Of a stretch of DNA of 64,000 nucleotides, positions 8,796-58,441 are shown one piece after another (within the stretch, counting starts at the first letter, position 1; every line of letters starts with the position of its first letter). Source of the DNA: Pseudanabaena sp. FACHB-1998 (lineage in GTDB: Bacteria > Cyanobacteriota > Cyanobacteriia > Pseudanabaenales > Pseudanabaenaceae). The stretch lies in NCBI RefSeq assembly GCF_014696355.1, contig NZ_JACJQA010000003.1:186001-250000 (forward strand). The letters are read 5' to 3'. The notes beneath the pieces are model-generated. The model was not told where the DNA came from. It saw only the letters and a program-made list of their open reading frames with translations, and did no database searches. Made by a program: the position numbers and the translations under genes.

Positions 8796-8826
8796 AAGCA
8801 GAAAATGGCTACGCCATTTTCTGCTT
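8796..8826. terminator. Hairpin after pyrD
   Basis: Perfect 14-bp arms (aagcagaaaatggc) flank a TAC loop directly after the pyrD stop. The loop and inner arm match the hairpin at 234-266. Its last bases overlap the start of the 38-bp palindrome that follows. Confidence 0.65.
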
Positions 8827-8901
8827 ACTTAAAACCCAGAAATATTTTTGAAAGCGGCGCTTTGCGCCGCTTTCAAAAATATTTCTGGGTTTTAAGTAAG
8901 C
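8823..8901. repeat. Perfect 38-bp-arm inverted repeat
   Basis: Arms at 8823-8860 and 8864-8901 are exact reverse complements around a TTT loop, giving a 79-nt palindrome. It follows the pyrD hairpin and is itself followed by a short cgctgtattacagcg palindrome. A transcript would form a very stable stem. It is far longer than needed for an intrinsic terminator and has no trailing T-run. Confidence 0.9.
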
Positions 8902-20487: not shown

Positions 20488-22200
20488 CTAAAAAGGAACA
20501 GAAATTCGTAAATGAATTAACTTTTGCGATCGCGGATGTCTGAACGTTAGCTCCTTGGCATGAAGATGTAGGCGATCGGTAGCAACCTGACAACCATAGA
20601 GGCGATCGCCTAAAATCGGCATTCCTAAACCACGGGGATCGACCGAGTGAACTCTCAATTGGTGAGTGCGTCCTGTTAAAGGCGTAAACTCGACGCGCGA
20701 ATAGTTCTGTTGATAGCCAATTAGGCGAAACTTGGTAACGCTCGGCTTACCTTTCTGAAAGTCCACCTGTTGACGGGGACGATTCTCAGGATTACCCCAT
20801 AGAGGGAGATCAATTACGCCTTCTTTGCGTTCAAGTTTGCCCGATAGTAGCGCCTCGTAGATTTTATGAATTTCTTTTTGTTGAAATTGAGCGCTTAAAT
20901 TGCGAAGAGTTTCTAAATCATGGGCAAATAATAAAATCCCTGAAGTTTGGCGATCGAGGCGATGGACTGGGTAAAGGAGAGAAGATTCCCCGAGAGTTTG
21001 CTGTAATCTACTTAGCGCACTGTCTTGAGTGTCGAGGTAGCGTCCGGGGATGGAGAGAAGCCCTGCGGGTTTAGCGATCGCCAGTATGCATTTGTCATCA
21101 TAAATAATTTGAAAATGTTGCGAAGCAACATTTTCAAGGACAGAAAGATTTTGAGAATGTTGCTTCGCAACATTCTCAAAAGAAAGGGGGGCTGGTGGAG
21201 ATCTCCTCCCCGACAACAGAAATCCCATTAAGGGTTGACATCGCTCCACACAAGCACCATAAAACTCACCTTGAATTTTGTAACCGTCGAGAGATGGTTT
21301 TCCCCACCAGAATTCAGCCATTGCTAAGGGCTTAAGATTATGATTCGCCGCATAATCTAATAATTTGGGAGCGCAACAATCTCCCATTCCTGTTGGCATT
21401 GCGCCTTCGGTGATTAATTCCCGTAGCGATCGCGTTTCTCCTGCGAAATTGGTTAATACATAAGCCCTGTGCATCTGGGTTTGCAAAGTCCGCGATAACT
21501 CGCGACGTTGAGTTTTGAGAATTTGCATTTTACAATCAGCAGCCTTAATTACTTCTAGCAGAGGTAAAAGAACTTGATCGCGATCGCGTTTAAAATTTCG
21601 CCTTGCCATCTTTTCCCTTTGACTTTCTCCCTCTAATTCTTTGAGAGCAAGTTCTAATTCTGTACCTGTGAAGGCGGCTAACAATTGCGATCGCTTAGCT
21701 TGTCTTGCTTGTTTAAAAACTTGATGGCGATCGCGCAAAACTTGTAATTGGAAAGCATATTCTTGAAATTTTTGTTCATACTCTAAACGTTCAGGAATCT
21801 CGCTTAGTTCAATTAATTCTTGTTTAATTAGGGCTAATTGATTTAAGGTAATGGATTCTGCGATGGCGACTTTTTCACGACCTGCGATCGGGGGAATCCA
21901 TCCGTCCAGATGACTTTTGCCATTTAATAAGCCCGAAAAAGCCTTGAGAACCAACTTCTCTCCTATTTCCGATTCTGCTAGCAATACCCCATACATTTTT
22001 CCTTCCATTCCTGAAAAGACTTCGGTTGAGCAAGGCTCAACTGAAGTCTTTTCATAATCTTTTTCCAGTTCTTGCATTAACTGGCGGGCGATCGCCTCGA
22101 TCTCTAAAGTGCGCGGCAGCCGAAACAAATCACCACTATAGGGACAAATCCCTTCATACCAATAGTTAACCGTTTGATTATCCTCTGAGGCAAGTATCAT
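20488..22200 (-). CDS. RluA-family pseudouridine synthase with long N-terminal region
   Basis: A 570-residue protein. The C-terminal 220 residues form an RluA-type catalytic domain: CILAIAKPAGLLSIPGR, the catalytic-aspartate motif HRLDRQTSGILLFA, FQQKEIHKIYEALLSG, EFTPLTGRTHQLRVH and LGDRLYG. The N-terminal 330 residues include a coiled coil (about 105-230) and a conserved cyanobacterial region (EGAMPTGMGDCCAPKLLDYA). It isomerises uridine in rRNA or tRNA; the target is unknown. The linker between the halves is encoded by two palindromic repeats (21109-21137, 21149-21181) that resemble the intergenic hairpins. Confidence 0.88.
   Translation of the reverse strand: MILASEDNQTVNYWYEGICPYSGDLFRLPRTLEIEAIARQLMQELEKDYEKTSVEPCSTEVFSGMEGKMYGVLLAESEIGEKLVLKAFSGLLNGKSHLDGWIPPIAGREKVAIAESITLNQLALIKQELIELSEIPERLEYEQKFQEYAFQLQVLRDRHQVFKQARQAKRSQLLAAFTGTELELALKELEGESQREKMARRNFKRDRDQVLLPLLEVIKAADCKMQILKTQRRELSRTLQTQMHRAYVLTNFAGETRSLRELITEGAMPTGMGDCCAPKLLDYAANHNLKPLAMAEFWWGKPSLDGYKIQGEFYGACVERCQPLMGFLLSGRRSPPAPLSFENVAKQHSQNLSVLENVASQHFQIIYDDKCILAIAKPAGLLSIPGRYLDTQDSALSRLQQTLGESSLLYPVHRLDRQTSGILLFAHDLETLRNLSAQFQQKEIHKIYEALLSGKLERKEGVIDLPLWGNPENRPRQQVDFQKGKPSVTKFRLIGYQQNYSRVEFTPLTGRTHQLRVHSVDPRGLGMPILGDRLYGCQVATDRLHLHAKELTFRHPRSQKLIHLRISVPF
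21109..21137. repeat. Palindromic repeat inside RluA-like gene, copy 1
   Basis: Perfect 13-bp arms (ttgaaaatgttgc) with a GAA loop lie within the coding frame, in the interdomain linker. It encodes part of ENVASQHFQ. The structure matches the hairpins otherwise restricted to intergenic gaps. Confidence 0.8.
21149..21181. repeat. Palindromic repeat inside RluA-like gene, copy 2
   Basis: Perfect 15-bp arms (ttttgagaatgttgc) with a TTC loop. The arms are one base different from copy 1, in inverted loop orientation. It encodes SFENVAKQHSQN in the linker. Confidence 0.8.
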
Positions 22201-22216
22201 AGCAGAAGTATCATAT

Positions 22217-22257
22217 AGTTAAGGAGTGGCGGCGCTTCGCGCCGCCACTCCTTAACT
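22217..22257. repeat. Hairpin between divergent RluA-like and selO genes
   Basis: Perfect 19-bp arms (agttaaggagtggcggcgc) flank a TTC loop in the 68-nt gap between two divergent starts. It cannot be a terminator for either gene, and would occupy the selO leader. Confidence 0.75.
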
Positions 22258-58371: not shown

Positions 58372-58441
58372 GAAAACCTTGGATATCCCTGAAACCTTTA
58401 CCTTTACCTAGGTAAAGGTTTCAGGGATATCCAAGGTTTTC
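58372..58441. terminator. Perfect 31-bp-arm hairpin after pilin gene
   Basis: Arms beginning gaaaaccttggatatccctg flank an 8-nt loop (tttaccta) just downstream of the minus-strand pilin gene. Very stable; probably ends the pilin transcript. Confidence 0.7.

Follow-up and report, generated by a model that had tools for sequence, protein, structure and literature searches.

The question raised by this locus is why a gene for an RluA-like pseudouridine synthase carries perfect palindromes within its reading frame, that is, whether they were inserted there, are kept as an RNA structure or are renewed by a process acting on DNA. We consider it probable that perfect palindromes are maintained and inverted in the DNA itself, the most likely agent being template switching during replication, and that they are tolerated in disordered linkers. 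The window is the whole 64,000-nt stretch that was analysed, and the features discussed are collected in Table 1.

Table 1. Position of the host gene, its palindromes and the related features
Feature	Position	Strand	Description	Basis
RluA-like pseudouridine synthase gene	20488..22200	-	570 aa; host of the palindromes	ORF and translation
PseudoU_synth_2 (PF00849) catalytic domain	20647..21084	-	residues 373-518, C-terminal part	profile match
Hairpin B	21109..21137	-	in frame, residues 355-364; 13-bp perfect arms; 3-nt loop, GAA on the + strand	
Hairpin A	21149..21181	-	in frame, residues 340-351; 15-bp perfect arms; 3-nt loop, TTC on the + strand	
Third hairpin	22012..22054	-	in frame, residues 49-63; 20-bp arms with 1 mismatch; 3-nt loop	
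Probable remnant (tentative), left end of GC-rich palindromic repeat	21182..21209	-	AGATCCCCCCCAGCCCCCC...	linker DNA comparison, judged by eye
Intergenic hairpin	22217..22257	.	perfect, of like build, immediately upstream of the RluA-like gene; 19-bp arms; loop TTC	
ctaA coding palindrome	L113 5922-5974 (G007) and L126 (G006)			

The product of the host gene had its best NCBIfam match in TIGR00005, of the RluA subfamily (181.8 bits, slightly below the cut-off of 192.7), and matched PF00849 with E = 1.3e-32. The initial annotation had described two palindromes, in frame and encoding the linker before the catalytic domain, and its coordinates, arms and loops were exact: hairpins A and B sit directly before the PF00849 domain. 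Both are real, but a third hairpin of the same gene had been missed. In the AlphaFold model of the protein, pLDDT was below 50 at residues 1-8, 54-63 and 334-360, and the last two of these stretches largely overlap the residues coded by the hairpins; according to this model, all three hairpins code largely for flexible, low-confidence protein segments.

Hairpins were counted in a sample of 464 kb of the same genome and in about 1.3 Mb from the genus. The 464 kb contained 296 hairpins that reach this quality (score > = 12), whereas third-order Markov sequence yielded none, and therefore the hairpins of the RluA-like gene are not due to chance. Most of the 296 were intergenic (238) and only 9 lay inside ORFs, 3 of them in the RluA-like gene. 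The MinC and DUF72 genes also carry such in-ORF hairpins, as does a ClpB-like gene, in which the palindrome (L037 3878-3916) falls inside a long insert between the D2 AAA core and the D2-small domain. Loops in the genus were mostly 3 nt in length, with the core GC-NNN-GC. A 55-nt repeat of this type matched Pseudanabaena plasmids only, which points to Pseudanabaena as the probable genus. A palindrome family, TGAAAGTGTTGC-NNN-GCAACACTTTCA, was present in 68 copies in the genome under study and in 5-165 copies per genome in all the 26 genomes of the genus (in both cases with at most 3 mismatches, and with 0 copies in the control). The arms of the linker hairpins are one and two mirrored substitutions away from this 68-copy family, which bears out the earlier description of them as built like the intergenic hairpins. 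The stem of the third hairpin had no second copy within 3 mismatches in the genome under study, and other species showed indels at its site.

The genus had 2-8.5 hairpins per 10 kb vs 0-3 per 10 kb in other cyanobacteria, and two sister genera had no hairpins in the 20 kb examined in each. Intergenic hairpins were denser between convergent genes (4.1/kb) than between divergent ones (1.7/kb), and, given this excess, some of the intergenic copies may serve as terminators. The window also holds two perfect palindromes that are unusually long for a bacterial chromosome, with arms of 38 bp (8823-8901) and 32 bp (58372-58441).

An orthologue of the RluA-like gene was found in 26 of the 26 genomes of the genus. 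Hairpin B occupies the identical codons in 11 other species (hence 12 species in total), with stems that differ, and the alignment is gap-free and comprises 11 distinct sequences, since two of the 12 species are identical there. In this alignment 93.5% of the cells were paired (95.9% if only the inner 11 pairs are considered), vs 28-45% when the partner was slid by one to three columns. Both sides had changed in 10 of the 14 pairs, whereas shuffles gave a mean of 5.0 and reached as high a value in 2 cases out of 500. Several of these double changes are of transversion type (U-A/G-C), which is unreachable via G.U, and columns 17/39 show four Watson-Crick pair types. The linker stem had no other genomic copy in G011, G014, G016 and G018, the four other species searched, and therefore hairpin B is there by descent in place and not by re-insertion. 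On these alignments, hairpin B is ancestral, inherited from an ancestor common to several species.

Hairpin A and the third hairpin were seen, among the 26 genomes of the genus, only in this lineage. Units A and B align across both flanks and stem (their proteins read ENVAKQHSQNL and ENVASQHFQII), with one mirrored stem pair that differs and with the loop inverted; as judged from this likeness, hairpin A is most likely a tandem duplicate of B arisen in this lineage. Because the 15-bp arms of hairpin A are found unchanged in an intergenic hairpin of the same genome, at G000:C8:44055, A may also derive from conversion by, or insertion of, a member of the 68-copy family.

Hairpin B is missing or substituted in 13 other species. 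In six of them the linker of the RluA-like gene holds instead a GC-rich palindromic repeat, translated in frame as PLKKGGEE...LFKGDLGG, which has inverted ends and an inserted look; the remaining species of the genus have neither hairpin B nor this repeat. The GC-rich linkers are those of L004, L006, L007, L018, L019 and L027, with the ends AGATCCCCC/GGGGGATCT, and the stretch next to hairpin A (Table 1) is probably, though tentatively, a remnant of the same repeat. When the variable segments were left out of the gene tree, at least 6 changes of linker type were needed on it, even between close sisters. Outside the genus, three genomes of two families had other GC-rich palindromes in the linker and most had none. 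The linker of the RluA-like gene is thus a hot spot for palindromes.

The initial annotation had suggested a mobile or expanding element, comparable to the palindromic elements of Rickettsia, and had proposed to check whether the segment is absent from orthologues and whether its arms recur in the genome. Expansion is supported by the restriction of hairpin A and of the third hairpin to this lineage, and the arms do recur, as the family and as the intergenic match to A, in the genome under study. For hairpin B, on the other hand, mobility is contradicted: it lies at these codons in 11 other species as well, its stem recurs in none of the four searched, and it is ancestral there, which the annotation itself had named as evidence against its proposal.

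We hold it unlikely, therefore, that a mobile palindromic element (RPE-, REP- or MITE-like) was inserted in frame in the linker, and for hairpin B we count this as refuted. The high-copy family, the exact match of the arms of A, the inserted look of the GC-rich repeat in the same linker and the repeated changes of linker type would fit such an element; besides the ancestry of B in the clade and its unique stems, it is opposed by a comparison of two genomes of the genus (G006 and G007), in which 258 kb with 93 orthologous hairpins showed no palindrome gained or lost, by the absence of the GTAG/CGTC tag, and by the 4 out of 26 genomes that have family copies yet gave no hit to an IS200/RAYT-type transposase. 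Precisely, in the search with PF01797, a profile with which RAYTs are counted together with IS200, there were 2 hits in the genome under study and none in G002, G009, G015 and G017, all with family copies. We rejected a REP of the GTAG/CGTC super-families, as the stem has no such tag at its foot, where the definition in PMC3733652 places it, and a transposase is not required, and we rejected recent transposition, as G006 and G007 show no palindrome indel. A repeated tag at G007:C1:1619001-1619131 and at seven other places, with many near-identical copies in G007 and partial ones in G006, is probably an insertion sequence.

G006 and G007 are 99.4% identical outside the hairpins (0.6% divergence). 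Of their 93 orthologous hairpins, 51 were identical, about 30 had an inverted loop (1-8 nt), about ten had one arm different and one or two had mirrored changes, these classes being partly overlapping. A two-state estimate put the flips of each hairpin at 0.53, which exceeds the substitution rate per site about 90-fold, a value that rests on a single pair of genomes known from assemblies and to which an assembly or library artefact may contribute. As a control, we compared E. coli MG1655 with SMS-3-5 (2.3% divergence), in which 0 of 17 loops were flipped vs 34 of 113 in the genus (Fisher P = 0.006), the control being small (157 kb, 17 hairpins). Flips and mirrored changes were seen also in other species, at syntenic intergenic sites. 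The hairpins were picked by score, which inflates the counts of mirrored changes, and the ratio of mirrored to single changes in family copies (137:30), being biased by this selection, has no value as proof.

A second coding palindrome was found in the CtaA/COX15 gene (PF02628) of both G006 and G007, perfect, with 23-bp arms and 53 bp in length. Its 7-nt loop is inverted between the two genomes, which turns TRS into TLR, with two amino acids changed (the proteins read LMDTRSVS and LMDTLRVS). The ctaA stem covaries across species, with 84.5% of cells paired vs 23-53% in the slid controls. Other species have palindromes or quasi-palindromes at this site, and, because most of them show no change in length, the palindrome was probably perfected in place.

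Hairpin B, syntenic intergenic sites and ctaA thus all showed substitutions that are mirrored between the two arms. Under template switching, the nascent strand would fold back or switch strand at the palindrome during replication. If one arm were copied from its partner, a mutation would come to stand on both arms, giving mirrored substitutions and perfect stems; if the switch took place within the arms, the loop would be inverted. Where a palindrome lies in a flexible segment, such as the RluA-like linker or the ctaA loop, the paired amino-acid changes would be tolerated and the frame would survive. From these patterns, template switching would be the agent rather than another process of DNA inversion. 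Between G006 and G007, none of the 12 hairpins with arms > = 25 bp was flipped, vs 30 of 80 with arms of 10-24 bp; simple template switching does not predict this, and the observation therefore argues against it.

Site-specific or nuclease-driven inversion, in which an enzyme, e.g. canonical SbcCD, would open the hairpins and rejoin them inverted (a micro-inverton), seems to us still less likely than insertion of a mobile element. The very high flip rate would suit it, and so would a second SbcD-type nuclease, found above the cut-off in 6 of the 6 genus members sampled and not in two sister genera, the extra gene adjoining an SbcC-like gene in one genome (G022); but E. coli, which has SbcCD, showed no flips, and the correlation with SbcD comes from one clade. 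The second nuclease gene is at G000:C41:45209-45970 (L305 5804-7024, - strand) and at G022:C1:201874-202635 (L307 6469-7635, - strand), and most other cyanobacteria have a single SbcD-type nuclease above the cut-off. Loss of SbcCD as the cause of the abundance of palindromes was rejected, as an additional SbcD homologue is present in the genus. It is possible, though we rate it low, that a hyperactive and possibly enzyme-driven loop inversion keeps hundreds of intergenic and a few intragenic hairpins flipping, with reversible protein variants in the population. In that equally doubtful case they would be micro-invertons of 1-8 nt, with Ala-Lys/Ala-Ser in the RluA-like linker and Thr-Arg-Ser/Thr-Leu-Arg in CtaA.

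Least likely of all is a functional mRNA hairpin (a pause between domains, RNA processing or autoregulation by the pseudouridine synthase) with compensatory mutations under selection at the RNA level: the position and the pairing of hairpin B are conserved and covary in 12 species and the host gene product works on RNA, but the loops are freely inverted, with roughly even use of the two orientations on the sense strand, the unrelated ctaA and intergenic copies act alike, 13 other species lack or have substituted the hairpin, and numerous double changes are of transversion type. Moreover, codirectional intergenic hairpins had as many G.T as A.C mismatches on their sense strand (48 vs 48), and in both coding hairpins together the two counts were close (13 vs 16), a test that is weakened, though not removed, by the fact that a flip converts G.T into A.C. 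We rejected RNA-level selection on the basis of this test and of the near-equal loop orientations, and we infer that the palindromes are not under selection for a role in the RluA-like gene.

Maintenance and inversion by template switching have precedents. In coding DNA of Saccharomyces cerevisiae, template switching homogenises arms and inverts spacers, GAA/TTC flips included (Abraham and Hazkani-Covo 2021, PMC8604942). There, as here, short inverted repeats in coding DNA have their arms perfected with the frame kept and amino acids altered, and spacers of 2-5 nt are inverted as the loops are here. Unlike in yeast, the genome is here bacterial and filled with palindromes at the density given above, about a third of the loops are different between genomes only 0.6% apart, and a coding palindrome has lasted across a dozen species. 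A template-switch origin and maintenance of hairpins has been argued for RNA genes (Monttinen and Loytynoja 2022, PMC8794818), where compensatory changes and loop inversions are likewise attributed to copying at the DNA level, whereas the hairpins considered here are in protein-coding and intergenic DNA and give no sign of RNA selection. The genes of Nematomorpha mitochondria also have perfect inverted repeats in coding sequence, with template switching proposed (PMC6649704); unlike the hairpins here, those palindromes are mitochondrial, reach 284 bp and lie in conserved regions. In invertons too (e.g. PMC11892184), DNA flanked by inverted repeats is inverted reversibly, whereas here the inverted part is 1-8 nt and a switching role is putative.

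In PMC3733652, Rickettsia palindromic elements and intragenic REPs are reported from flexible linkers, also in pseudouridine synthase genes, and these share with our case in-frame palindromes in flexible parts of unrelated proteins. They are inserted copies of tagged families, whereas hairpin B is ancestral and untagged and has no second copy in any of the four other genomes searched. Among open-licence papers we found no description of this genus, or of any bacterial genome, at such intensity; the mechanism thus appears to be already known from yeast coding DNA and its genus-wide bacterial intensity to be undescribed in the papers searched.

Covarying stems are usually considered as proof of a functional RNA, and here there is strong covariation with no sign of RNA selection. 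As both coding and intergenic palindromes covary in this way, a mutation process alone can therefore yield covariation, and hundreds of natural replicates of this are available in each Pseudanabaena genome. If our reading is true, it would be a bacterium whose protein linkers are rewritten repeatedly by template switching, several residues each time, and in which the rate and the enzymes of template switching at palindromes would become measurable.
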